Below are positions 12,937 to 24,957 of a stretch of DNA of 41,022 bases, piece by piece. Source of the DNA: Sphaerotilus sulfidivorans. Lineage in GTDB: Bacteria > Pseudomonadota > Gammaproteobacteria > Burkholderiales > Burkholderiaceae_C. The translations under genes were made by a program, and so were the position numbers. Below the pieces are notes generated by a model. That model did not search any database. It saw only the letters and a program-made list of their open reading frames with translations, and was not told the origin of the DNA. Location of the stretch: the NCBI RefSeq assembly GCF_013426975.1, contig NZ_JACCPY010000034.1, positions 1-41,022 of the forward strand, given 5' to 3'. The stretch's first letter is position 1; each line of letters begins with the position of its first letter.

Positions 12937-13410
12937 TCAGTCCGCGGCACCGACCTGGTGCCGCGCCACCTTGTCGAGCAGCTCGATCAGCATCGCGCGC
13001 TCGGCACGGCTGAGCGCGCCGTCGAGGTCGGCCTCCATCGCCGGCGTGCGCGCCAGCGCCTGGTCGGTCAGCGCGCGGCCGGCCGAGCTCAGCAGCACAT
13101 GCTGCGAGCGCCGGTCGGTCTCGCTGCGGATGCGCTCGATCAGGCCGCGCTCCTGCATGCGGTCGAGCATGATCGTCAGGTTCGGCGCCGACAGTGCCAG
13201 CGCCTGCGCGAGCTGCTTGGGCGTCAGCCGGGTGTTGGCATCGAGCAGCATCAGCAGCGAATAGTCGACCGGGCGCAGCTCGAGCGGCTGGCCGACATGG
13301 CGCAGGAACATCGCCTGCGTCGTGACCCGCGCGCGGGCGACGTGGTAGCCGACGACATCGTCGAGCACGCCCTGGCGGACCGGATTCTTCTTGGCGTGGG
13401 AGGTGTCCAT
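12937..13410 (-). CDS. MarR-family transcriptional regulator of the hydroxycinnamate-type cluster
   Basis: A 157-aa winged-helix regulator. The fold is visible as an N-terminal helix (YHVARARVTTQAMFLRHVG), the HTH with LTPKQLAQALALSAPNLT around residues 62-79, and a wing ERIRSETDRRSQHVLLS. MarR members such as CouR and FerR repress phenylpropenoid catabolic genes and are released by the CoA thioester. This gene is last in a minus-strand run starting with a crotonase and a feruloyl-CoA synthase, so the same role is likely. The 21-bp near-palindrome at 23865-23885 is a plausible target. Specificity is inferred from context. Confidence 0.85.
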   Translation of the reverse strand: MDTSHAKKNPVRQGVLDDVVGYHVARARVTTQAMFLRHVGQPLELRPVDYSLLMLLDANTRLTPKQLAQALALSAPNLTIMLDRMQERGLIERIRSETDRRSQHVLLSSAGRALTDQALARTPAMEADLDGALSRAERAMLIELLDKVARHQVGAAD

Positions 13411-13457
13411 GTCGCCATCTTGCCCGCACTCGGACGGCGGGCCCGCGGGCGAGCGGC

Positions 13458-15269
13458 TCAGAGACCTGGCCACGCCAGCTCCGGCACGCCGGATTCGATG
13501 CGTGTCCAGCGCCAGCGCGCGGCCGGCAGCAGCCAGTCGCGGCCGTGCGCGCACAGCGCCTGCAGGCGCTGGCGCCGCGCCGCGTCCAGGTCGCCCAGGC
13601 TGGCGCGCAGCAGCCGCGCCCAGGCCCAGGCCAGCAGGGTGTGGCCGAGCGCGTGCAGATAGTCGTCGGCCACCAGGAAGGGCAGGTCCGGCCGTGCAGC
13701 GCGCTCGCGCTGCAGCGTCGCGGTGGCGCGCTCCAGGGTCGTGGCCTCGTCGCGCAGCAGCGCGGCCCAGCGCGCCAGGCCGGCCGGATCGCCGTCCGCG
13801 GCCGTCCCGGCCAGCGTGTCGAGCGTGCCGGCCTCGCCGCGCAGCACCTCGAGCAGCAGCGCCAGCCGCCCCGGCCGGTCGAGCACCTTGCGCATCAGGA
13901 GATCGATGGCCTGGATCTCGTTGGTGCCCTCGTAGATCAGCGCGATGCGGCTGTCGCGCACATGCTGCTCGATGCCCCAGTCGTGCACATAGCCGTGGCC
14001 GCCGAGCACGCCCAGCGCCTCGTTGGCGCCGTGGTGGCCCAGGTGGGTCAGGAAGGCCTTGACCACCGGCGTGAGCAGGGCGACCAGATCGTGGCGCTGC
14101 GCGCGCACCGCGGCGTCCGGATGGTGTTCGGCCTCGTCGAGCAGCAGCGCGGTCCAGTAGGCGATGACCCGCGCGCCCTCGGTGCGGGCCTGCAGGTCGA
14201 GCAGGATGCGGCGCATCGCCGGATGCCAGGCGATCGGGTCGGGGCCGCGGGCAGCGGCCGCGTCGCTGCCGGCCGGGCGACTCGGCGCGCGCAGCTGCAG
14301 CCGCTCCTGCGCGTAGGCCGAGGCGATGCGGGTGGCCGCCTCCAGGTGCCCCAGGCCCTGCATGCCGACATGCAGCCGCGCCGAGTTCATCATCAGGAAC
14401 ATCGCCGCCAGGCCGGCGTTGGGCTCGCCCAGGATCCAGCCCTCGGCCTGCTCGAAGCGCATCTGCGCGGTGGCGCTGCCCTTGATGCCCATCTTCTTCT
14501 CGATGCCATCGCACCAGGCGCCGTTGCGCCGGCCGTCGGGCAGGATCTTGGGCACCAGCACCAGCGTCAGGCCCTTGGTGCCGTCCGGTGCGCCGGGCAG
14601 GCGCGCCAGCACCAGGTGGACGATGTTGTCCGTCATGTCCTGGTCGCCGCCGGAGATGAAGATCTTCTGGCCGGTGACCGTGACCGCCGCGCCGTTGGCG
14701 ACCGGCGCGGCCGCATCCACCGGCTCGCAGCGGGTGCGGCTCAGGCCGAGGTCGCTGCCGGCCTGCGGCTCGGTCAGGTTCATCGTCGCCAGCCATTCGC
14801 CGCTGACGACCCGGGGCAGGTAGCGCTCGCGCAGCGCCGGCACCGCGTGGTGGCGGATCGCCTCGCAGGCGCCGTGCAGCAGGCCGGGATACATCGTCCA
14901 GGCGTGGTTGGCGCCCACCAGCATTTCGAAGAGCGCGGCGTTGAGCAGCTGCGGCAGGCCCTGGCCACCGTCCTCGGGCGCGCAGGGCAGGGCGGGCCAG
15001 CCGCCCTCGACGAAGGCCCGCCAGGCGGCGGGAAAGCCGTCGGGCGTCTTCACCGTGCCGCCGGACTGCCAGGTGCAGCCCTGCAGGTCGGCCGGGCCGT
15101 TCAGCGGCGCGATCACGTCCTGCGCGAAGCGGCCGGCCTGCTCCAGCACCTCGCGCGCCAGATCGGCGTCGACCTCGGCGAAGTCGGGCATCGCGCGCCA
15201 GGAGGCCGGCGCGTCGAGCACCTGCTCGATGACGAAGCGCATGCGCTCCAGCGGGGGGATGTAGCTCAT
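13458..15269 (-). CDS. acyl-CoA dehydrogenase, long form (DmdC/AcdA-like, about 600 aa)
   Basis: FAD enzyme that makes the alpha,beta double bond in an acyl-CoA. It has 603 aa, the length of the subgroup with a short N-terminal extension (SYIPPLERMRFVIEQV) and an extra C-terminal domain. The FAD/substrate motif NLTEPQAGSDLG is near residues 163-175, followed by KIFISGGDQDM. The catalytic base is the Glu of IYEGTNEIQAID, near residue 447. In this cluster a likely substrate is a 3-arylpropanoyl-CoA (dihydro-hydroxycinnamoyl-CoA), which would join the pathway at the cinnamoyl level. That is inference. GGAG lies 7 nt before the start. Confidence 0.9.
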   Translation of the reverse strand: MSYIPPLERMRFVIEQVLDAPASWRAMPDFAEVDADLAREVLEQAGRFAQDVIAPLNGPADLQGCTWQSGGTVKTPDGFPAAWRAFVEGGWPALPCAPEDGGQGLPQLLNAALFEMLVGANHAWTMYPGLLHGACEAIRHHAVPALRERYLPRVVSGEWLATMNLTEPQAGSDLGLSRTRCEPVDAAAPVANGAAVTVTGQKIFISGGDQDMTDNIVHLVLARLPGAPDGTKGLTLVLVPKILPDGRRNGAWCDGIEKKMGIKGSATAQMRFEQAEGWILGEPNAGLAAMFLMMNSARLHVGMQGLGHLEAATRIASAYAQERLQLRAPSRPAGSDAAAARGPDPIAWHPAMRRILLDLQARTEGARVIAYWTALLLDEAEHHPDAAVRAQRHDLVALLTPVVKAFLTHLGHHGANEALGVLGGHGYVHDWGIEQHVRDSRIALIYEGTNEIQAIDLLMRKVLDRPGRLALLLEVLRGEAGTLDTLAGTAADGDPAGLARWAALLRDEATTLERATATLQRERAARPDLPFLVADDYLHALGHTLLAWAWARLLRASLGDLDAARRQRLQALCAHGRDWLLPAARWRWTRIESGVPELAWPGL

Positions 15270-15288
15270 GTCCGGGCTCCGGGGCGCA

Positions 15289-16008
15289 TCACTTCTTCGC
15301 GCCCAGATAGGTCTCGATGACACGCGGATCGACCGCCAGCTCGCGCGCCGGGCCCTCCAGCGCGATCGCGCCGGTCTCCAGCACATAGCCGTAGTCGGCC
15401 ACTTCCAGCGCGGCGCGCGCGTTCTGCTCGATCAGCAGGATGGACACGCCGGTCTCGCGCAGCCGCTCGATGATGCGGAAGATCTCGCGCACGATCAGCG
15501 GCGCCAGGCCCAGGCTGGGCTCGTCGAGCATCAGCACCTTGGGCTGGCTCATCAGCGCGCGGCCGACCGCCAGCATCTGGCGCTCGCCGCCCGACATCGT
15601 GCCGGCCTGCTGGTCGCGGCGCTCCTTCAGGCGCGGGAACAGGGTGTAGACCCGCTCGAGCTGCTCCAGCCACTGGTCGTTGCCACGGCGCTTCTGGCGC
15701 CAGCCGCCCAGCACCAGGTTGTCCTCGACCGTCATCGTCGAGAACAGCTCGCGCTTCTCGGGCACCAGCGCCAGGCCGGCCATCACCCGTTCCTCGAGCG
15801 GCACGTCGATGATGTCGCGGCCGTCGAAGGTGATCGCGCCGCTGGCCGGCAGGATGCCCATCAGCGCGTTGAGCGTCGTCGACTTGCCGGCGCCGTTGGG
15901 GCCGATCACCGTCACCACGCTGCCCTGGGGCAGCTTCAGGTTCAGGCCCGAGAGCACCTCGGCCTTGCCGTAGCCGGCGCGCAGGCCGCGCACTTGCAGC
16001 AGATCCAT
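15289..16008 (-). CDS. livF: branched-chain-type ABC transporter ATPase LivF
   Basis: A 239-aa cytoplasmic ATPase of a HAAT/Liv-type importer. Walker A GPNGAGKST is at residues 36-44, the signature SGGERQ at 139-144, Walker B LMLDEP at 159-164, and the H-loop region is replaced by LLIEQNA as usual for LivF. It is transcribed after the livMG fusion (28 bp) and before the acyl-CoA dehydrogenase (19 bp). In this setting the solute is probably an aromatic acid rather than a branched-chain amino acid. Confidence 0.95.
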   Translation of the reverse strand: MDLLQVRGLRAGYGKAEVLSGLNLKLPQGSVVTVIGPNGAGKSTTLNALMGILPASGAITFDGRDIIDVPLEERVMAGLALVPEKRELFSTMTVEDNLVLGGWRQKRRGNDQWLEQLERVYTLFPRLKERRDQQAGTMSGGERQMLAVGRALMSQPKVLMLDEPSLGLAPLIVREIFRIIERLRETGVSILLIEQNARAALEVADYGYVLETGAIALEGPARELAVDPRVIETYLGAKK

Positions 16009-16036
16009 CGTCCTTGTCTCCCGTGAAGGCTGAGTC

Positions 16037-17818
16037 TCAGTGCTCGGTGCCGAGGTAGGCCGCGCGCACCTCGGGGCTGTCCTGCACCTCGGCCGGCGTG
16101 CCCTCGATCAGCTTGGTGCCGAACTCCATCACCACGATGCGGTCGGTCAGGTTCATGACGAAGTCCATGTCGTGCTCGACCAGCAGCAGGCTCATGCCCT
16201 CGCCTTTCAGCTGGCGCAGCACCGCAGCCAGTGCCTGCTTTTCCTTGTGGCGCAGGCCGGCGGCCGGCTCGTCGAGCAGCAGCAGCGCCGGGTCGGTGCA
16301 CAGCGCGCGCGCGATCTCCATCAGCCGCGCCGGGCCCAGCGCCAGGTTGCCGGCCAGCTCGTGCATCTGCTCCTTCATGCCGATGCGCTCGAGCTGGCGC
16401 TCGGCCTCGCGGAAGAGGCGGCGCTCCTCGTCGCGGTCCAGCCGCAGCATCGCCTGCGCCATGCCGGCCGAGCTGCGCAGATAGCCGCCCAGCGCGACGT
16501 TCTCCAGCACCGTCATGTCCGGCAGCATCTTGACGTGCTGGAAGGTGCGGCTCATGCCGCGCCGCGCGATCTCGCGCGAGGCCAGCGCCGAGACATCCTC
16601 GCCGCGGAAGCTGACCCGCCCGGAGGTCTTCGACAGCACGCCCGAGATCAGGTTGAAGGTGGTCGACTTGCCCGCGCCGTTCGGGCCGATCAGGCCGATG
16701 ATCTCGCCGGCGCGGATCCGGAACGACACATCGTTGACCGCCACCAGGCCGCCGAACTGCTTGCGCACCCGGTCGACCTCGAGCAGCAGTTCGCCCGGCG
16801 CCGGCTTGGCGCGCTCGGGCAGCGGCGCGGCGTCGGCCCAGTCGCGCACCCGGCGCTTCTCCGGCAGGAAGCGCGCGAACAGGCGCTCGATGTGCGGCCA
16901 CAGGCCCTCGGAGGCGTACTTCAGCACCACCACCAGCACCAGGCCGAAGACGATGACCTCGTAGTTGCCGCTGGTGCCGATCAGCCGCGGCAGCCAGTCC
17001 TTGAGCTGATCCTCGGTCAGCTTGACCAGTGCCGCGCCGGTGAAGGCGCCCCAGACATGGCCGACGCCGCCCAGCACCGCCATGAACAGGTACTCGATGC
17101 CCTTCGACAGCGAGAAGGGCGAGGGATTGACGGTGCGCTGGAAGTGCGCAAAGAGCCAGCCCGAGACCGAGGCCAGCATCGCCGCCAGCACGAAGATCTG
17201 GACCTTGTAGCGGTAGGTGGAGATGCCCATCGCCTCGGCCATGGTCGTGCCGCCCTTGAGCGCCCGGATCGCGCGGCCGCTGCGCGAGTCCAGCAGGTGG
17301 ATGACCGCCAGCGCCGCCAGCAGCGCGATCACCCAGATCACGTAGAAGTAGCTGCGACCGGAGCCGAGATCGAGGCCGAACAGGCTCAGCGCCGGCACGC
17401 CCAGGATGCCGTCGTACTTGCCCAGCATCTCCATGTTCGACATGGTGTAGTAGAGCGCCAGCGCCCAGGCGATGGTCGCCAGCGGCAGGTAGTGGCCCGA
17501 CATGCGCAGCGTGACGGCGGCCAGCACCAGCGCCACGACCACGGTGATGCCCAGGCCGATGAACAGCGTCAGCCAGGGCGACAGCCCGACATTCACCGCC
17601 AGCGTGGCCGCGGTGTAGGCGCCGATGCCGACGAAGGCGGCCTGGCCGAAGGAGGTGAGGCCGGCCACGCCCGTCAGCAGCACCAGGCCGAGCGAGACGA
17701 TGGCATTCAGGCCGATGTAGTTGAGCTGGGTGATCCAGAACTCGGGAACCGGCAGGACCGGCAGCAGCGCAAGCAGCGCGGCGAAGGCGATGAACCAGCG
17801 TGTACGGGCCGACACCAC
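16037..17818 (-). CDS. livMG: fused LivM permease - LivG ATPase of a branched-chain-type ABC importer
   Basis: One polypeptide (593 aa) carries both the permease and an ATPase. The permease (residues 1-305) has about nine membrane segments and the LivM motif FGQAAFVGIGAY. After a charged linker, the ATPase has Walker A GPNGAGKST near 378-386 and Walker B LLLLDEPAAGL. Its signature region reads LALGPARLMEIARAL instead of the usual LAYGQQRRLEIAR. The start is decided by AGGAGG (17825-17830), 6 nt before GTG 17818, one base after the livH stop. GTG 17845 and ATG 17833 are in frame but have no Shine-Dalgarno. The fusion is common in Burkholderiales. Confidence 0.92.
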   Translation of the reverse strand: MVSARTRWFIAFAALLALLPVLPVPEFWITQLNYIGLNAIVSLGLVLLTGVAGLTSFGQAAFVGIGAYTAATLAVNVGLSPWLTLFIGLGITVVVALVLAAVTLRMSGHYLPLATIAWALALYYTMSNMEMLGKYDGILGVPALSLFGLDLGSGRSYFYVIWVIALLAALAVIHLLDSRSGRAIRALKGGTTMAEAMGISTYRYKVQIFVLAAMLASVSGWLFAHFQRTVNPSPFSLSKGIEYLFMAVLGGVGHVWGAFTGAALVKLTEDQLKDWLPRLIGTSGNYEVIVFGLVLVVVLKYASEGLWPHIERLFARFLPEKRRVRDWADAAPLPERAKPAPGELLLEVDRVRKQFGGLVAVNDVSFRIRAGEIIGLIGPNGAGKSTTFNLISGVLSKTSGRVSFRGEDVSALASREIARRGMSRTFQHVKMLPDMTVLENVALGGYLRSSAGMAQAMLRLDRDEERRLFREAERQLERIGMKEQMHELAGNLALGPARLMEIARALCTDPALLLLDEPAAGLRHKEKQALAAVLRQLKGEGMSLLLVEHDMDFVMNLTDRIVVMEFGTKLIEGTPAEVQDSPEVRAAYLGTEH

Positions 17819-17819
17819 G

Positions 17820-18857
17820 TCAATCCTCCTCATGATGCGGGTCACGCAGCGAACGCCACAGCAGGACCGGCAGGATGGAGGTGAACACGATCACCTCCTT
17901 GAACGAACTGGCCCAGAACGAGCCGAACGATTCGAGCAGTCCGACGCCCATCGCGCCGACCAGGGCCAGCGGATAGCTCGACAGCCCGGCGAAGACCGCC
18001 GCGACGAAGCCCTTCAGGCCGATCAGGAAGCCCGAGTCGTAGAACACCGTGGTGGTCGGCCCGATCAGCAGGCCCGAGAGCGCGCCGATGAAGGCTGCCA
18101 TCGTGAAGCTCAGCCGGCCGGCCTGCACCGTCGAGATGCCCATCAGCCGCGCGCCGACCCGGTTCACCGCGGTCGCGCGCAGGGCCTTGCCGTACAGCGA
18201 GCGCTCGAAGAACAGCCACAGCATCACGATCAGCGCCGCCGAGGCCAGGAAGATGATGATCGTCTGGCCCGAGAGCATCAGCGGCCCGGCCGAGAAGCGC
18301 TCGTCCCAGAAGCTCGGGTTGCGGAAGCCCTCGGCGCCGAAGAACAGCAGGCCCAGGCCCAGCAGCGCGAAATGCACGCCCACCGAGACGATCAGCAGCA
18401 CCAGCACGGTGGCGTCGGCCAGCGACTCGTAGGCCAGCCGATAGGTCAGCCCGCCCAGCGGCGTGACGATGGCCAGCGTCAGCAGCGCCTGCGCCACCAG
18501 CGGCAGCTGCATCGGCGCCACCGTGATGGCCAGCGCCGCCACCGCCACCGGCACCGCCAGCGTCAGGCCGGCCTCGCGCAGCAGCAGCGCGGTCGGCCGG
18601 CCCTGGCGCAGGCCCTGCACCAGCGTGGTCAGCGCCACCAGCACTGCCATGATCAGCAGCAGCCAGACGGTGCCCGGCACCTGGCCGGTCTGCAGCAGCG
18701 CCAGCGTCAGCGCCCCGAAGGCGACGAACTCGCCCTGCGGGATGAAGATCACCCGGGTCACGGCGAAGAGCAGCACCGTCGCGGTGGCCAGGAGCGCGTA
18801 GACCGCGCCGTTGGTCACCCCGTCGAGTGCGAGGATGCTTGCGATCGAGAAGTCCAT
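17820..18857 (-). CDS. livH: branched-chain-type ABC transporter permease LivH
   Basis: A 345-aa inner-membrane permease with eight or nine hydrophobic segments. The LivH-type start is [25 protein letters not shown], and there is an internal EAA-like region [15 protein letters not shown]. The C-terminal half, [30 protein letters not shown], is typical of LivH homologues that accompany LivMG fusions. It lies 51 bp after livK and is followed almost without a gap by livMG. Confidence 0.94.
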
Positions 18858-18908
18858 GGGTTCGTCTCGTGCGGGCCCGCGCTGGCAGCGGCACGGGCGG
18901 GGCGGTTG

Positions 18909-20090
18909 TTACTCGACCTTCCAGTCGCCGTTGACCACCTTGAGGATCACGCCGGTCTCGGTGGTGAAGCCCCAGTGGTTGTCCTTCGCATAGGTCAGGA
19001 CGCCGTGCGAGACGACGGTGCGGCCCATCGTCTCGACCGCGTCCTTCAGCGCGGCGCGGAATTCCGGCGTGCCGGGCTTGCCCTTCTTCAGCGCCACCGG
19101 CACCACCTTCTCCAGCACCAGCGCCGCGTCATAGGCGTGGCCGGCGAACTGGTTGCGCGAGCCCGCGCCATGGGCCTTCTCGTACTTCTGCACGAAGTCG
19201 AGCGCGACCTTCTTCGACGGGTGGCTGTCGGGCAGCTGCTCGCCGATCACCGCCGTGCCGGAGACGACATAGGCGCCCTCGACATCCTTGCCGCCGATGC
19301 GCATCAGGTCACGGGTGGCCGCGGCATGGGTCTGGTAGATCCTGCCCTTGTAGCCGCGCTCGACGACCGCCTTGTGCGGCATCGCCGCGCCCGAGCCCGA
19401 GGCGACGATCAGCATCGCGTCCGGGTTGGCGGCCACCAGCTTGAGCGCCTGCGCAGTCACGCTGGTGTCGGAGCGGGCGAAGCGCTCGGTGGCCACCACC
19501 TTGATCTCGGGCGCGATCTTCGCGGCCTCGGCCTGGAAGTCCTTCAGCCAGCTCTCGCCGTAGGCGTCGGTGTAGCCCAGGAAGCCGACCGACTTCACGC
19601 CGAGCTTCTTCATGTGCGTCAGCAGCGCATGCGACATCACCGCGTTGGACTGCGGCAGCCGGAAGGCCCAGGCGTCCTTGCCGGCCTGCAGCACCGCCGG
19701 CGAGAACATGAAGTGCGGCGTGCTGGCGGCCGCGACGGTGTCGGACATCGCGATGGCCACCGGCGTGGCGGCCGAGCCCATGACGATGTCGGCCTTGTCC
19801 TGGGTGACGAAGCGCTGCGCGTTCTGCACGCCCTTGGTCGGGTCGGTGGCGTCATCGAGCACGATGACATTGAGCTTCTCGCCGGCGATCGAGGTCGGCC
19901 ACAGCTTGATCGCATTGCCCATCGGAATGCCCAGGCCGCTGGCCGGCCCGGTCAGCGGCAGCGACACCCCGATGGTGATGTCGGCCATCGCCGCGCCCGA
20001 CACCGCCCACAGCGCCGCGCTGGCGAGCAGGGTCTTCAGGAGCGGCTTGCTGGCGTTCTCTTGCGTCTCTTGCGTCTTGTGCGTCGTCAT
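18909..20090 (-). CDS. livK: periplasmic substrate-binding protein of the Liv-type ABC importer
   Basis: A 393-aa type I periplasmic binding protein with a signal peptide (hydrophobic stretch LLASAALWAVSGAAMA, cleavage expected after AMA near residue 36). The mature part begins DITIGVSLPLTGPASGLG, the standard Peripla_BP_6 opening, and contains GYTDAYGESWLKDF. Related proteins bind aromatic acids (for example p-coumarate in Rhodopseudomonas) as well as amino acids. The cluster suggests a phenylpropenoid ligand. ATG 20090 is preceded by GGAGGAAGAC, a strong ribosome site. A TetR-type palindrome lies 72-87 bp upstream. Confidence 0.92.
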   Translation of the reverse strand: MTTHKTQETQENASKPLLKTLLASAALWAVSGAAMADITIGVSLPLTGPASGLGIPMGNAIKLWPTSIAGEKLNVIVLDDATDPTKGVQNAQRFVTQDKADIVMGSAATPVAIAMSDTVAAASTPHFMFSPAVLQAGKDAWAFRLPQSNAVMSHALLTHMKKLGVKSVGFLGYTDAYGESWLKDFQAEAAKIAPEIKVVATERFARSDTSVTAQALKLVAANPDAMLIVASGSGAAMPHKAVVERGYKGRIYQTHAAATRDLMRIGGKDVEGAYVVSGTAVIGEQLPDSHPSKKVALDFVQKYEKAHGAGSRNQFAGHAYDAALVLEKVVPVALKKGKPGTPEFRAALKDAVETMGRTVVSHGVLTYAKDNHWGFTTETGVILKVVNGDWKVE

Positions 20091-20161
20091 GTCTTCCTCC
20101 GGGGTCCGGTGAGGTGGTGGCACTGTGCCGTTGAGGGAAATCAAGGACCATGCGGATATTC

Positions 20162-20177
20162 CCGACCGTCCGGTCGG
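20162..20177. promoter_or_regulatory. TetR-type operator-like palindrome upstream of livK
   Basis: A perfect inverted repeat CCGACCG-TC-CGGTCGG sits between the SDR stop and the livK start. Palindromes built on ACCGACCGGTCGGT are bound by TetR-family regulators of aromatic and acyl-CoA catabolism; this one has a 2-bp central insertion. No TetR gene is in the window. It suggests an internal, separately controlled promoter for the transporter part of the gene run. Confidence 0.5.
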
Positions 20178-20219
20178 TCTATCCGTCGTCGTTCTGCATC
20201 GTGTCCTGTGTGCGCCGGT

Positions 20220-20990
20220 TCAGCGCGGCGCCAGTCGCAGCGCGCCGTCGAGGCGGATGACCTCGCCGTTGAGGTGGCCGTTGGCGACGATGTGGGCTGC
20301 CAGCATCGCGAACTCGGCCGGGTCGCCCAGCCGTTTCGGGAAGGGAATCGCCGCGGCCAGCGACTGCTGCACCGCCTCGGGCAGCTCGTTCATCAGCGGC
20401 GTGGCGAACAGGCCCGGCGCGATCGTGCAGACCCGGATGCCCCACTGCGCGAGGTCGCGCGCCAGCGGCAGCGTCATGCCGACCACGCCGCCCTTGCTGG
20501 CCGCATAGGCCTCCTGGCCGACCTGGCCGTCGAAGGCCGCGACCGAGGCGGTGTTGACGATGACGCCGCGCTCGCCGGCGGTGCCCTCCAGCGGCTCGAG
20601 CTTCGCGATGCGTGCGGCCGCCAGCCGGACCATGTTGTAGGTGCCCAGCAGGTTGACGCGCACCACCCGCTCGAAGTCCTCCAGCGGCGCGGGCGAGCCG
20701 TCGCGCTGGATCACCCGCTTGGCGGTGCCGATGCCGGCGATGTTCATCAGGATGCGCGCGGGTCCGAGCGCAGCCTCGGCGGCATCGAGCGCGGCCGAGA
20801 CGCTGGCGCTGTCGGTGATGTCGCAGCGCAGCGCCAGGCCGCCGATCTCGGCGGCGACCGCCTCGGCGCCGGCGGCGTTGACATCGAGCACCGCGACCTT
20901 CGCGCCCTGGCGGGCCAGCTCGCGGGCGACCGCGGCGCCGAGGCCGGAGCCGCCGCCGGTGACGAGGGCGGTGTGTCCTGGGATCTGCAT
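20220..20990 (-). CDS. short-chain dehydrogenase, 3-hydroxyacyl-CoA dehydrogenase type
   Basis: A 256-aa classical SDR. The cofactor motif TGGGSGLG is at about residues 11-18, and an Asp after beta-2 (VLDVN) indicates NAD(H). The NxAG motif appears as NIAGIG, and the active site is Ser in [10 protein letters not shown] with YAASKGG. It ends like the HSD17B10/type II 3-hydroxyacyl-CoA dehydrogenases ([13 protein letters not shown]). Here it would oxidise 3-hydroxy-3-arylpropanoyl-CoA to the 3-keto thioester, the role of CouN-type enzymes. It lies 78 bp after the ligase with a REP-like hairpin between. Confidence 0.9.
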
Positions 20991-21006
20991 GGGAGGGGTT
21001 CCTTCG

Positions 21007-21033
21007 TGGGTCCCCGCCTGCGCGGGGATGACG
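21007..21033. repeat. REP-like short palindromic element
   Basis: TCCCCGC-CTGC-GCGGGGA (21011-21028), flanked by GTGG and TGACG, matches the common proteobacterial intergenic palindrome of the form tcccCGCctgcGCGggga-tgacg. It lies between the ligase and SDR genes and could affect mRNA stability. I found no second copy in the window. Confidence 0.5.
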
Positions 21034-21068
21034 GAATCAAGCGGGTGGCGTGCGGGCGCGCTCGGCGC

Positions 21069-22973
21069 TCAGCCGCGGCGCGGCAGGATCAGGAAGGGAT
21101 CGCTCTCGCGGCCCTCGTACATCGCCTCGACCAGCGCGGCGCGGTGCTGCAGCACCGCACGCTGGTTGATCGAGCCCTTGTCGGTGACCTCGCCCTTGTC
21201 GATCGAGGGCGGCTCGGCCAGCACATGCAGCCGCGCCGGCCGGTTGGCGCTGCCGGTGCCCTCGCACCAGAGCCGGTCGGCGAGCTGCTGGAAGAAGTCG
21301 CGCACCGCGGGCGTGTGCAGCAGCTCCGGCACCGGCAGCGCCTCGGCCTCCAGCCCGTCGGCGGCGGCCAGGCGGCGGCATTCGTCCAGGCGCGGGAAGA
21401 TCAGCAGGCCGATCTCGTCGCGGTTCAGGCCGGCGACCACCACGTCCTGGATGCAGGGCGCGCCGGCCAGCGTGACCCGGGCGCGCAGGGGGCCGACGCT
21501 GACGAAGGTGCCGGTCGAGAGCTTGAAGTCCTCGGCGGTGCGGCCGTCGAAGACCAGGCCGCGCGCCGGATGCGCCGGATCGACGAACTTCGCCGCGTCG
21601 CCGGTGCGGTAGAAGCCGTCTTCGTCGAAGGCGGCCGCGGTCTGCTCGGGCGCGCGCCAGTAGCCCGGCGTGACGTTGGGGCCGCGGAAGCGGATCTCGG
21701 TCTTGGCGTGCGGGTCGCCAGCGGCGCCGTCGCGCACCAGCTTGACCTCGACGCCCGGCACCGGCAGGCCGATCCAGCCCGAGCGCACATCGGTGCCGAC
21801 CGCGAAGGTGCACGACGGCGCCGTCTCGGTCATGCCCAGCCCGGTGATGATGCGCACCCGCTCGCCGATCTCGGCCTCGCCGTGGGCGTCGAGCCGGTCC
21901 CAGACCGCCTGGCTCAGGCCGGCGCCGGCGAACATGAAGGCCTGGACCCGCGAGAACAGCGTGCGTCGCAGCAGCGGATCGTGGTCCATCGCGCTGGCGA
22001 TCTCCTCGAAGCCCTTCGGGACATTGAAGTAGACCGTGGGCGCGATCTCGCGCAGGTTGCGCAGCGTCTCGGCGATGCCCTTCGGCGTGGGCTTGCCCTC
22101 GTCGATGTAGAGCGTGCCGCCGTTGTAGAGCACGATGCCGACGTTGTGGTTGCCGCCGAAGGTGTGGTTCCACGGCAGCCAGTCGACCAGCACCGGCGGC
22201 TCGTCGGCCAGGAAGGCCAGGCACTGGCGCAGCATCTGCTGGTTGGCGCAGATCATGCGCTGGGTGTTGATCACCGCCTTGGGCAGCTTGGTCGAGCCGG
22301 AGGTGAACAGGAACTTGGCGATGGTGTCGGGGCCGACCCGGTCGTGTGCGGCATCGCCCGTGGGGCCGGGTTCGGTGGCCAGCAGCGCGGCGAAGGGCGT
22401 GACCGGGCGCTCGTCGAGCGCGCCGGCAGTCAGCACCACCTCGACCTCGGGGCCGAAGACCGCCTCGATCGCTCGCCCGTAGGCCGGCGAGGCCGCGAAC
22501 ACCAGCCCCGGCGTGACCGTCTGCGCGATGTGGCGCAGCTTGCCGAAGTCCTGCGACACCAGCGAGTAGGCCGAGGACACCGGCACCACCGGCACGCCCG
22601 CCCACATCGCCCCCATCACCAGCGACAGGTGCTCGAGGTCGTTGTCGGACAGGATCAGCACCGGCCGCTCGGCCGACAGGCCGCGGTCGGTCAGCGCCTG
22701 GCCGATGGCGCGGGCGCGCTGGCGCATCTCGGCGTAGCTGATGTGAACCCAGTCGCCGCCGCTACCTCCGTCAGCCGCCGGCGTGCGCCGGGCGACGAAG
22801 GTGCGCTCGGGCGCTTCCTCGGCCCATTGGTCGAGGCAGTCGGTCAGGCGTGCCGGGTACCAGCCCAGCGGCTCGGTCGAGCGCAGCAGCAGAGGGCCGT
22901 CGTCGCGGGTCTCGAGCTGCGCGTCGACGCAGCCGCCGACACGGGCGTCACGGTAGCGGGGCGAGATGCTCAT
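21069..22973 (-). CDS. fcs: feruloyl-CoA synthase family acid-CoA ligase
   Basis: ATP-dependent CoA ligase (634 aa, family length) that activates ferulate, p-coumarate or caffeate to the CoA thioester via an acyl-AMP. The AMP-binding P-loop reads FTSGSTKLPKAVINTQRM. The subgroup hallmark DWLPWNHTFGGNHNVG, followed by LYNGGTLYIDEGKPTP, is specific to feruloyl-CoA synthases. Later come TGLGMTETAP and FYRTGDAAKF. The C-terminal domain has FDGRTAEDFKLSTGTFVSVGPLR, and DKGEVTDKGSINQR carries the usual lysines. It starts 4 bp after the crotonase stop, with GGAGG upstream. Exact acid preference cannot be read from sequence. Confidence 0.93.
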   Translation of the reverse strand: MSISPRYRDARVGGCVDAQLETRDDGPLLLRSTEPLGWYPARLTDCLDQWAEEAPERTFVARRTPAADGGSGGDWVHISYAEMRQRARAIGQALTDRGLSAERPVLILSDNDLEHLSLVMGAMWAGVPVVPVSSAYSLVSQDFGKLRHIAQTVTPGLVFAASPAYGRAIEAVFGPEVEVVLTAGALDERPVTPFAALLATEPGPTGDAAHDRVGPDTIAKFLFTSGSTKLPKAVINTQRMICANQQMLRQCLAFLADEPPVLVDWLPWNHTFGGNHNVGIVLYNGGTLYIDEGKPTPKGIAETLRNLREIAPTVYFNVPKGFEEIASAMDHDPLLRRTLFSRVQAFMFAGAGLSQAVWDRLDAHGEAEIGERVRIITGLGMTETAPSCTFAVGTDVRSGWIGLPVPGVEVKLVRDGAAGDPHAKTEIRFRGPNVTPGYWRAPEQTAAAFDEDGFYRTGDAAKFVDPAHPARGLVFDGRTAEDFKLSTGTFVSVGPLRARVTLAGAPCIQDVVVAGLNRDEIGLLIFPRLDECRRLAAADGLEAEALPVPELLHTPAVRDFFQQLADRLWCEGTGSANRPARLHVLAEPPSIDKGEVTDKGSINQRAVLQHRAALVEAMYEGRESDPFLILPRRG

Positions 22974-22977
22974 GGTC

Positions 22978-23808
22978 TCAGTCCTCCGACTTCACGACCT
23001 TGCCGGCACGGCCTTCGAGGAAGGCGCGCAGCCGCGCCTGCGCCTCGGGCGTGTTGCTGGCCGAGGCGGCCATCAGCGATTCGGCGAACAGGCCCTCCGA
23101 CGGGCTCATCTCGACGATGCGCGGCAGCGCGTGCATCACCGCGAACGCGGTCATCGGTGCGTTGCCGGCGATCTTGCGGGCCAGCTCGATGCCCTTGGCC
23201 AGGCCGGCGCCGTCGCCGACGCGGTAGTTGACGATGCCGTAGCGCTCGCCCTGGTCGGCGTCGAAGACGCGGCCGGTCAGCATCATGTCGGTCATGCGCG
23301 CCGCGCCCATCAGGCGCGGAATGCGCACCGAGCCGCCGCCGCCGACGAAGATGCCGCGCTGGCCTTCGGGCAGGCCGAAGTAGGCCGAGTCCTCGGCGAC
23401 GCGGATGTGGCAGGAGGCCGCCAGCTCCAGCCCGCCGCCGACCACCGCGCCGTGCAGCACCGCGATCACCGGCACGCGGCCGAACTGGATCGCGTCGAAG
23501 GCGGCATGCCAGCCGCGCGAGTGCAGGATCGCGGCGTGGATGTCGCGCTCGACCAGCTCGGAGAGGTCCAGCCCGGCGCAGAAGTGCGCGCCCTCGCCGC
23601 TGACCACCACCGCACGCACGTCGGCGGGCAGGTTGACGAAGGCGGTGTGCAGCTGCGCGATCAGGCCGTCGTTGATCGCGTTGCGCTTGACCGGGCGGTT
23701 CAGGCGGATGTGCAGCACCGCGCCGTCCTGGCTGATCTGCAGCAGCTCGAGGCCGGCCAGCAGGCCGGTCGCGGGGGTGAAGGTGGCGTCGGGGGCAGGC
23801 GTGCTCAT
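22978..23808 (-). CDS. enoyl-CoA hydratase/isomerase (crotonase), hydroxycinnamoyl-CoA hydratase candidate
   Basis: A 276-aa crotonase. The oxyanion-hole segments (HFCAGLDLSEL and HGAVVGGGLEL) are present. Both hydratase glutamates are retained: Glu in GGGLE and Glu in FGLPEGQRG. It does not show the sequence features of the hydroxycinnamoyl-CoA hydratase/lyases that release vanillin. Simple hydration to the 3-hydroxy thioester is more likely, as for CouM-type enzymes. It is first in the minus-strand gene run, with a MarR-type palindrome 57-77 bp upstream. The N-terminal 20 residues before the fold are Pro/Thr-rich. Confidence 0.9.
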   Translation of the reverse strand: MSTPAPDATFTPATGLLAGLELLQISQDGAVLHIRLNRPVKRNAINDGLIAQLHTAFVNLPADVRAVVVSGEGAHFCAGLDLSELVERDIHAAILHSRGWHAAFDAIQFGRVPVIAVLHGAVVGGGLELAASCHIRVAEDSAYFGLPEGQRGIFVGGGGSVRIPRLMGAARMTDMMLTGRVFDADQGERYGIVNYRVGDGAGLAKGIELARKIAGNAPMTAFAVMHALPRIVEMSPSEGLFAESLMAASASNTPEAQARLRAFLEGRAGKVVKSED

Positions 23809-23864
23809 GTCGGGGCGGCGATGGGGGAGATCCGGGGCGTCTGACGGGCGCTTTGCAGGCCCTG

Positions 23865-23885
23865 ATGCTTAGGAAATATAAGTAT
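23865..23885. promoter_or_regulatory. MarR-type operator-like near-palindrome in the crotonase/amidohydrolase control region
   Basis: ATGCTTA-GGAAATA-TAAGTAT: 7-bp arms with one mismatch, in an AT-rich island of a GC-rich region. On the minus strand it contains TATATT (complement of 23875-23880), a possible -10 box for the crotonase operon, so a bound repressor would block it. It lies 181 bp before the divergent amidohydrolase start. Confidence 0.6.
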
Positions 23886-24066
23886 CTGGCTGTGCCCTGG
23901 ATCTCCATGAAAACCCTCGACTCACCAAATTCAACTTCCGTGCGGTGCGTTTTTACGGGTAAACCCTTGGTGTAGGGCTATTTTTTGATTACAGAATTTA
24001 AGCAAATGATCCGCAAGATCACCGACAAGCTGCCCACCAGACCGCCCACCAGACTGGACCCCGCCG

Positions 24067-24957
24067 ATGAACACCGATGACCTGATCGCGATCGACATCC
24101 ACACCCATGCCGAGGTGTCATGCTGGAACCCGTTCGACAACTACGGCGAGGAGTACGACCGCGCCGCCGACAAGTACTTCGGCTCGAACCGGCGCCCGAC
24201 CATCGCCGAGACGGTCGCCTACTACCGGGAGCGCAGGATCGGCCTGGTGATGTTCACCGTCGACAGCGAGAGCAAGCTGGGGCGCCGGCGCATTCCCAAC
24301 GAGGAGATCTGCGAGGCGGCGAAGGCCAATTCGGACATGATGATCGCCTTCGCCTCGATCGACCCGCACAAGGGCAGGATGGGGGCACGCGAGGCGCGCC
24401 GCCTGATCGAGGAGCATGGCGTCAAGGGCTTCAAGTTCCACCCGACGGTGCAGGACTTCCTGCCCTACGACCGCATGGCCTGGCCGATCTACGAGGTGAT
24501 CGCCGAGTACAGGCTGCCGGCGATCTTCCACTCGGGCCACTCGGGCATCGGCTCAGGGATGCGCTGCGGCGGCGGCCTGCGGCTGCAGAACTCCAACCCG
24601 ATGCTGCTGGAGGACGTGGCGATCGACTTTCCCGACATGGAGATCGTCATCGCGCACCCGAGCTGGCCGTGGCAGGACGAGGCGCTGAGCCTGGCGCTGC
24701 ACAAGCCCAACATCTGGATCGATCTCTCGGGCTGGAGTCCGAAGTACTTTCCGCAGCAGCTGGTGCAGTACGCCAACACGCTGCTGAAGGACCGCATGCT
24801 CTTCGGCTCGGACTATCCGCTGATCACGCCCGAGCGCTGGATGAAGGACTTCGACGAGGCCGGCTTCAAGGACAAGGTCAAGCCGCTGATCCTCAAGGAC
24901 AACGCGATGCGGCTGATGCGCCTGGGGCCCTACCGGGAAAGCGCTGCGTCGGTCTGA
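24067..24957 (+). CDS. amidohydrolase-2 family protein, probable 3-keto-3-arylpropanoyl-CoA hydrolase
   Basis: A 296-aa TIM-barrel metal hydrolase. Ligand candidates are H12 and H14 (DIHTH), H155/H158 (FHSGHSG), H197 (AHPSWPW) and D249 (FGSDYP). In the actinobacterial Cou and Phd pathways an amidohydrolase of this family hydrolyses the beta-keto thioester formed from p-coumaroyl-CoA, replacing a thiolase. Its position at the head of a divergent ligase-crotonase-SDR set fits that role exactly. Decarboxylases related to gamma-resorcylate decarboxylase share the fold and are the main alternative. The upstream 258 bp hold the MarR-type site and a TTTAC-GG-GTAAA dyad (23952-23963). Confidence 0.87.
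   Translation: MNTDDLIAIDIHTHAEVSCWNPFDNYGEEYDRAADKYFGSNRRPTIAETVAYYRERRIGLVMFTVDSESKLGRRRIPNEEICEAAKANSDMMIAFASIDPHKGRMGAREARRLIEEHGVKGFKFHPTVQDFLPYDRMAWPIYEVIAEYRLPAIFHSGHSGIGSGMRCGGGLRLQNSNPMLLEDVAIDFPDMEIVIAHPSWPWQDEALSLALHKPNIWIDLSGWSPKYFPQQLVQYANTLLKDRMLFGSDYPLITPERWMKDFDEAGFKDKVKPLILKDNAMRLMRLGPYRESAASV

Follow-up and report, generated by a model that had tools for sequence, protein, structure and literature searches.

The degradation of hydroxycinnamates by coenzyme A (CoA) ligation and beta-oxidation-like shortening of the side chain is a pathway type that is already published for Agrobacterium fabrum (PMC7797058), for Rhodococcus jostii (PMC4737184) and, in the breakdown of piperine, for Rhodococcus ruber (PMC12753220), as far as the accessible parts of these sources describe it. 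According to the available text, the R. jostii amidohydrolase CouO yields an aromatic acid (PMC4737184), and HpeF, a hydroxyphenyl-beta-ketopropionyl-CoA hydrolase, is 95% identical to CouO (PMC9618137). For Cupriavidus basilensis B-8 a hydratase/lyase and vanillin dehydrogenase route has been proposed and a beta-oxidative thiolase (Aat) route considered possible (PMC3560178), while a figure legend for Burkholderia ISTR5 names a beta-ketothiolase (PMC6880542); an amidohydrolase ending is not mentioned in the accessible parts of either paper. A literature search covering titles, abstract openings and a few subscription papers returned no description of a betaproteobacterial amidohydrolase form of the pathway, or of an exchange of endings. 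Here we describe a probable case of such a form in Sphaerotilus sulfidivorans, in a window of 41,022 nucleotides (contig NZ_JACCPY010000034.1; the window is the whole stretch of DNA that was analysed). The locus in question is probably a regulon for the uptake and side-chain shortening of p-hydroxycinnamates (p-coumarate, ferulate and caffeate).

Ten full open reading frames span positions 12937–24957, where the initial annotation had placed them, and the Pfam and NCBIfam assignments agree with the protein classes it had named. Nine of the genes are colinear on the minus strand (12937–23808), lying head to tail with gaps of at most 129 bp, and are transcribed in the order crotonase, ligase, short-chain dehydrogenase/reductase (SDR), binding protein, LivH, LivM–LivG fusion, LivF, acyl-CoA dehydrogenase and MarR. 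The tenth gene encodes an amidohydrolase and is divergent (24067–24957, plus strand), with 258 bp separating it from the crotonase gene. The nearest of the 80 fetched loci, that of Leptothrix sp. C29 (L087 in our numbering), carries the same ten genes at 94–99% identity (83% for the ligase), and subsets of the set recur in many relatives; this recurrence is why the grouping is not due to chance. The close match to L087 places the window in Leptothrix or a near relative, within the Sphaerotilaceae according to the labels on the crotonase tree. The earlier proposal of a hydroxycinnamate side-chain module is upheld as a predicted function: the amidohydrolase is of the CouO/HpeF family and the 3-hydroxyacyl-CoA dehydrogenase of the HSD10 type, and the importer and the MarR protein resemble CouP and CouR. 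Protein families, gene order, ligand and catalytic residues, genomic contexts and one conserved palindrome are the observations; from them we infer what each enzyme does, in which order and on which substrate, that the palindromes serve as operators, and which compound is the effector.

In the proposed pathway, the acid would enter through a CouP-like binding protein and a Liv-type ATP-binding cassette (ABC) importer and would be converted by the ligase to the cinnamoyl-CoA. The CouA/DmdD-type crotonase would hydrate this thioester to the beta-hydroxyacyl-CoA, which the HSD10-type SDR would oxidise to the beta-ketoacyl-CoA, and the CouO/HpeF-type amidohydrolase would hydrolyse the latter to acetyl-CoA and the free aromatic acid (4-hydroxybenzoate or vanillate). 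The amidohydrolase would thus accomplish in a single step what a thiolase and an aroyl-CoA thioesterase do in sister operons. Dihydro-hydroxycinnamoyl-CoAs could be desaturated into the pathway by the acyl-CoA dehydrogenase, and a CoA thioester would release the CouR-like MarR protein from two palindromes in the divergent promoter.

The amidohydrolase matches Amidohydro_2 (PF04909) with 161 bits against a cut-off of 26.4, and an NCBIfam search gave no match at E 0.001. Its best relatives in plasmid records are from Pseudomonas putida YC-AE1 (73.5% identity) and Paraburkholderia (67%); further plasmid relatives, from Sphingobium, Nonomuraea, Rhizobium, Streptomyces and others, are mostly 55–61% identical. 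Clusters of ligase, crotonase and SDR genes hold the amidohydrolase in Rhizobium Q54 (L003), Rhizobium TH2 (L131), Peteryoungia (L130), Paracoccus (L129) and Sinorhizobium (L128), and the Q54 copy, 60% identical, is annotated as '4-hydroxyphenyl-beta-ketoacyl-CoA hydrolase'. The Terrarubrum copy (L004) stands beside ligase and crotonase genes without a linked SDR gene, and three actinobacterial members (L005, L126 and L127; 55–61% identical) lie in clusters of ligase, SDR and MaoC genes. In P. putida (L008, 74% identical) and Rhodococcus JS3073 (L006, 49%) the amidohydrolase gene belongs to an operon of the acetophenone type, alongside genes for a carboxylase, a phosphatase and a ligase. A tree of 67 rows, from which three sequences with in-frame stops were omitted (L173, L175 and L185), groups the window protein with Cou-type and Hpe-type operon proteins (48–81% identity); L134, L136 and the paralogue L002 fall outside this group. 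An 81% identical copy from a genome of the host's family (L120), which lies beside an acetoacetate-CoA-ligase-like gene alone, branches within the window protein's own clade of betaproteobacterial sequences from crotonase contexts. H12, H155, H197 and D249 are present in all 47 core rows of the alignment and H14 in 46 of them; we take these five residues to be metal ligands. The frames of L061, L073, L074, L135 and a stretch of the host's own genome (L112) were not clean and were left out of this alignment. By these comparisons the protein belongs to the CouO/HpeF family of beta-ketoacyl-CoA hydrolases, and hydrolase activity is predicted. The main argument for proposing this reaction is that hydroxycinnamate and acetophenone-type operons would share an aryl-beta-ketopropionyl-CoA intermediate.

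Across a sample of the phylum the amidohydrolase is present in 37 of 398 genomes and 24 of 213 genera. Forty-one of the 42 amidohydrolase loci other than that of the window, from this sample and from one of 200 genomes of the order, were read (G058 was left out), and 19 of the 41 have both a crotonase and a ligase. Copies without recognised pathway neighbours are found in two families, one with genomes of 6–9 Mb (f88; for example L174, 8419–9300) and one with genomes of about 3 Mb (f85); inspection of the frames around the amidohydrolase in L174 and L164 gave no clue to pathway neighbours. Two further loci combine the amidohydrolase with crotonase and ligase genes in other settings. In one, on a plasmid of Streptomyces sp. 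NBC_00841 (L132), the amidohydrolase stands with a CouA-type crotonase and an acetoacetate-CoA-ligase-like gene; in the other, from a metagenome-assembled genome labelled Runella (Bacteroidota; L032), a 71% identical amidohydrolase accompanies crotonase, ligase and SDR, which would reflect either transfer or a binning error.

The predicted importer and regulator resemble those of the cou locus of Rhodopseudomonas palustris. The putative p-hydroxycinnamate-binding protein (18909–20090, minus strand; Peripla_BP_6) matches CouP (4JB0) with 331 bits, along with related chains in the PDB, and is 46% identical to the CouP copy of Rhodopseudomonas palustris XCP (L010). When numbering is mapped onto the latter, T102, R197, S222, Q305, H309 and F306 are kept and E50 is replaced by M; in the accessible part of the CouP study the first five are the residues that hydrogen-bond ferulate (PMC3610893). 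The remaining components of the importer, also on the minus strand, are a LivH-type permease (17820–18857; BPD_transp_2), a LivM–LivG fusion of permease and ATPase (16037–17818; BPD_transp_2 at residues 32–299 and ABC_tran at 361–519, with a GTG start after AGGAGG) and a LivF-type ATPase (15289–16008; ABC_tran), whose 256 bits to the LivF model fall under the cut-off of 441. In three Rhodopseudomonas loci (L009, L010 and L012) the fused protein has one full-length match each, which points to a like fusion in these loci. The MarR-family protein (12937–13410, minus strand; 157 aa, Pfam MarR_2) has R. palustris CouR (6C28) as the best of 48 matched PDB sequences (E 1.6e-18), followed by 3FM5/5CYV (E 7.7e-7), which the available text identifies as R. 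jostii CouR (PMC4737184).

Two operator-like inverted repeats lie between the divergent genes. The one near the crotonase promoter (23864–23886), a proposed MarR site, was first spotted in the window, after which it was tested across relatives: in aligned 23-mers from 26 homologous divergent promoters, a set that includes the window and L087, the mean number of complementary pairs is 5.15 of 8 against a background of 2.03, and none of 20,000 random draws reached the observed mean. The second proposed site, near the amidohydrolase promoter (23984–24006), has seven of eight outer pairs and is less well conserved. Its spacing is identical in L087, L035 and L036 hold a differently spaced palindrome at about the equivalent position, and a search for a counterpart in L079 found none. 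The conserved palindrome at 23864–23886 ties the divergent amidohydrolase gene to the operon, and the MarR protein is the presumptive ligand of the site.

The remaining enzymes of the proposed pathway are all encoded on the minus strand. The predicted feruloyl/p-coumaroyl-CoA ligase (21069–22973) is a PRK12582-type acyl-CoA synthetase (NF009232) and is 53–54% identical to the ligase that adjoins the CouA-like gene in the Rhodopseudomonas loci L009–L016. The SDR (20220–20990; adh_short) scores 270 bits to 3TL3 and 261 to 1U7T, a type II 3-hydroxyacyl-CoA dehydrogenase; the scores to HSD10-type 3-hydroxyacyl-CoA dehydrogenases and their kin run from 216 to 270 bits, and the single FabG-type chain among the matches at E 1e-35 reaches 130 bits; by this measure the protein is clearly of HSD10 type. 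The crotonase (22978–23808; PRK08150, 388 bits, cut-off 232), a proposed hydroxycinnamoyl-CoA hydratase, has as its best PDB match 3HIN of R. palustris (300 bits, 57% identity). A 3HIN-like gene precedes the ligase, thioesterase and CouP genes in Rhodopseudomonas, which is the position of CouA, and this gene order suggests that 3HIN is RPA1786, that is, CouA. The window crotonase carries both Glu128 and Glu148. In an alignment of 91 crotonases, Glu occupies the first position in 90 rows and the second in all 91, and the sole exception is the hydratase/lyase of a Paraburkholderia locus (L007), which has Ser in place of Glu128. The acyl-CoA dehydrogenase (13458–15269; 603 aa, Pfam Acyl-CoA_dh N/M/1 and Acyl-CoA_dh_C) has 8r1e and 8png as its best PDB matches (466 and 463 bits).

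The crotonase tree, built without L013, L016 and L076, places the CouA clade among crotonases from operons with SDR and thiolase genes, which questions the assignment of CouA to a route other than beta-oxidation; the accessible part of a review classes the CouA pathway as beta-oxidative (PMC10458429). Seven Rhodopseudomonas cou loci (L009–L013, L015 and L016) keep a thioesterase gene between CouB and CouP. Directly before the CouA-type crotonase, Rhodopseudomonas and its kin encode a small protein (L010, 9151–9603, and many alphaproteobacterial loci), presumably DUF3237; a member of the same family is found near the amidohydrolase in L007 (14109–14597), with 37–41% identity and no NCBIfam match at E 1e-60.

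The initial annotation held that the amidohydrolase replaces a thiolase. A genome scan with the crotonase gave 154 confirmed stretches, the best 80 of which were kept as loci, and 60 of these were counted, the flanks of the other 20 being insufficient. Twenty-one of the 60 have the amidohydrolase only, 18 a thiolase only, one both and 20 neither. For the 32 betaproteobacterial loci, which were sorted manually from the alphaproteobacterial ones by record title and position in the tree, the corresponding numbers are 20, 10, one (L052) and one (L083); Fisher's exact p for amidohydrolase against thiolase is 1.8e-6, with shared descent ignored. One of the ten thiolase-only loci (L082) has its thiolase gene 4 kb away on the opposite strand. 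A thioesterase gene accompanies eight of the ten thiolase-only betaproteobacterial loci and two of the 20 with the amidohydrolase only, and the two endings are interspersed in the crotonase tree. The 27 alphaproteobacterial loci, a set drawn by CouA sequence, have the thiolase in eight cases and the amidohydrolase in none, and the plasmid loci show that the amidohydrolase does occur in other alphaproteobacteria. Within 200 genomes of the order, searches that scored at most 12 crotonase and eight thiolase candidates per genome, so that absences are soft, found the crotonase in 13, the amidohydrolase in 10 and the thiolase in five. Eight of the 13 crotonase genomes have the amidohydrolase (six within about 8 kb of the crotonase), three a thiolase, one both and three neither; the genome with both (G049) has them in one locus, L119.

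Several observations weigh against the proposed pathway or against a simple replacement. Both endings are present in L052, L119, L157, L159 and L171, three of which (L119, L157 and L159) combine crotonase, ligase, amidohydrolase and thiolase, and the last of which has thiolase, crotonase and SDR without the same ligase. A strict mutual exclusion of amidohydrolase and thiolase was rejected on these five loci; replacement is a tendency, not a rule. One of the 20 amidohydrolase-only loci (L070) rests on a broken, weak match of 102 bits in two pieces, an SDR match of at least 150 bits is found in just 11 of the 20, and the gene lists of L037, L047, L072 and L076 show no SDR. Seventeen of the 41 amidohydrolase loci read from sampled genomes are without a recognised context. 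The 722 bits of the ligase fall below the PRK12582 cut-off of 777, and CouO, PhdC, Atu1421 and the HpeF of the published strain were compared by description or context, not by their own sequences. In Paraburkholderia sp. PREW-6R (L007, 7623–12888), genes for a hydratase/lyase (508 bits, cut-off 276), an aldehyde dehydrogenase, a ligase and the amidohydrolase adjoin, and hydratase/lyase-like and similar dehydrogenase genes are found close to the amidohydrolase in a further locus (L176). As L007 holds hydratase/lyase and amidohydrolase side by side, the two routes are not strictly alternative.

These last loci bear on a retro-aldol route, in which a CouA-like hydratase/aldolase crotonase would form 4-hydroxybenzaldehyde or vanillin and acetyl-CoA, an unlinked aldehyde dehydrogenase would finish the conversion, and the SDR and amidohydrolase would serve other substrates. 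We regard this route as unlikely, even though hydratase/lyase genes accompany the amidohydrolase in L007 and L176 and the crotonase is 57% identical to the protein whose gene has the CouA position. In the part of the source available to us, CouA is reported as a hydratase/aldolase converting p-coumaroyl- and feruloyl-CoA to the aldehydes (PMC7997838). Thiolase, SDR and thioesterase genes accompany the same crotonase in sister operons, as would fit beta-oxidation. The window crotonase has both catalytic Glu residues, unlike the hydratase/lyase of L007, although these residues alone do not separate the routes because Rhodopseudomonas CouA has both too. The earlier statement that the retro-aldol genes are absent is borne out to this extent: none of 14 genome matches to the hydratase/lyase model NF006588 reaches its 276-bit cut-off (the best has 142 bits, and the L007 gene, a positive control, 508), and the ten genes include no aldehyde dehydrogenase. 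As a statement about function it was too strong, and calling the hydratase/lyase absent is unsafe because a CouA-type crotonase is claimed for both routes. Of the 12 aldehyde-dehydrogenase matches in the genome, none exceeds 37% identity to the L007 protein that resembles vanillin dehydrogenase. Ten of the 12 were compared with NCBIfam at E 1e-60: nine have best models for other aldehydes and one has no match, and no vanillin-dehydrogenase model hit the L007 protein either.

A dihydro-hydroxycinnamate or another arylpropionate is quite improbable as the main substrate. The 603-aa dehydrogenase that would introduce it belongs to the operon and is encoded in many relatives' loci, but the residues by which CouP recognises 4-hydroxylated cinnamates are conserved in the binding protein, and the read stretches of two clusters of ligase, crotonase, SDR and amidohydrolase genes (L130 and L131) contain no such dehydrogenase. 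A role of the amidohydrolase as a resorcylate-type decarboxylase, or as some unrelated hydrolase, is very improbable: the PDB matches after 3IRS (65 bits) include 2,3-dihydroxybenzoate decarboxylases, but scores to decarboxylase chains do not exceed 39.8 bits, against 260–405 bits to proteins from CouO/HpeF contexts, and the protein recurs in hydroxycinnamate and acetophenone-type operons. The decarboxylase role was rejected on these scores, and the grouping with such enzymes that the initial annotation had named as a possible refutation does not appear in them (the tree contains no decarboxylases). A methylthiopropionate pathway of the DmdB–DmdC–DmdD kind, as in the demethylation of dimethylsulfoniopropionate (DMSP), is extremely improbable. 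The crotonase does match 4IZB, which we take to be DmdD, with 211 bits, the acyl-CoA dehydrogenase matches 6ijc, which we take to be DmdC, with 433 bits, and plasmid homologues are annotated dmdD; the crotonase is nevertheless far nearer to 3HIN, on which ground this pathway was rejected, and its partners are a PRK12582-like ligase and CouP-like and CouR-like proteins.

Elsewhere, the genome encodes PobA, the 4-hydroxybenzoate hydroxylase (677 bits against a cut-off of 539), which speaks for the proposed pathway; the best match to the protocatechuate 3,4-dioxygenase beta subunit stays below its cut-off (71 against 296 bits), and two VanA_C and two LigB matches exceed the Pfam cut-offs, so that vanillate demethylation and meta-cleavage are possible in the host. 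In the stretch 27802–34011 of contig C8 (L115), a second PRK12582-type ligase (653 bits, below the cut-off) adjoins a transporter of the Liv type, with pobA at a distance of about 3 kb. Further along the same contig lies an aldehyde dehydrogenase of the 3,4-dehydroadipyl-CoA semialdehyde type.

What is new here is the distribution of amidohydrolase-only, thiolase-only, double and missing endings across 32 comparable betaproteobacterial loci. The analysis adds a well-defined betaproteobacterial operon to those with a hydroxycinnamate route of the amidohydrolase type and links importer, regulator and enzymes at the level of residues. The same operon with a hydrolytic or a thiolytic ending is a natural experiment on why bacteria forgo the energy of a thioester. 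Tentatively, and with more doubt than confidence, the cou-like operon may be a platform whose carbon–carbon-cleaving end has been exchanged repeatedly between a thiolytic form (thiolase and aroyl-CoA thioesterase) and a hydrolytic one (amidohydrolase), both releasing the free aromatic acid. In that case R. palustris CouA, which lies deep within this beta-oxidation clade and next to what would be a left-over thioesterase, could be either a lyase that arose secondarily or a hydratase with a mis-assigned route.

Compared with described systems, the locus shares most with proteobacterial ones. The initial annotation had equated it with the Cou/Phd route of actinobacteria, and R. jostii RHA1 (CouL, CouN, CouO and CouR) does share CoA ligation, beta-oxidation, an amidohydrolase (CouO) that leads to an aromatic acid and a MarR repressor answering p-coumaroyl-CoA, in the accessible account (PMC4737184); the window MarR protein may respond to a similar effector. 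The actinobacterial clusters L005, L126 and L127 differ, however, in having a MaoC-type hydratase, which we infer from these three to be a defining feature, and other types of ligase and SDR, whereas the window has a crotonase and none of its ten proteins matched the MaoC family in Pfam. The set of crotonase, ligase, SDR and amidohydrolase is found in the alphaproteobacterial L003 and L128–L131 as well, and a module confined to actinobacteria was rejected on these loci. PipU, V, W and X of Rhodococcus ruber, which are kin of hydroxycinnamate enzymes and were themselves tested in vitro, form a similar four-enzyme set resembling beta-oxidation in the text available (PMC12753220), but are actinobacterial and act on piperic acid; they were compared by description only. 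The Hpe acetovanillone pathway uses the same amidohydrolase family (HpeF) at the same beta-keto-CoA intermediate, as judged from the accessible text and from L006 and L008 (PMC9618137), but forms that intermediate by acetophenone carboxylation, not from cinnamate.

The R. palustris cou system (CouA, CouB, CouPSTU and CouR) is like the window locus in its crotonase (57% identity), ligase (53–54%), binding protein (46%, ligand residues shared), LivH, LivM–G fusion and LivF, and CouR-like MarR protein. It is unlike it in that neither an amidohydrolase nor a thiolase is matched in the seven full-flank loci, which also lack a linked SDR (L013 has a single distant match of 70 bits) and carry a thioesterase instead; a TRAP transporter is present as well, and the system is reported as non-beta-oxidative in the part of the source seen (PMC3610893). 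The A. fabrum C58 region SpG8-1b (Atu1415, 1416, 1417, 1421 and HcaR) belongs to an alphaproteobacterium and has another gene order; the accessible text mentions neither a Liv importer nor an acyl-CoA dehydrogenase and calls Atu1421, compared here by description only, a beta-ketothiolase (PMC7797058). It nonetheless offers a feruloyl-CoA synthase, an enoyl-CoA hydratase, a phenylhydroxypropionyl-CoA dehydrogenase, an enzyme that cleaves the beta-keto-CoA, a MarR repressor and a free aromatic acid as product (PMC7797058). The earlier interpretation was thus mostly right and too narrow, and the nearest described systems, R. palustris cou and A. fabrum SpG8-1b, are proteobacterial.

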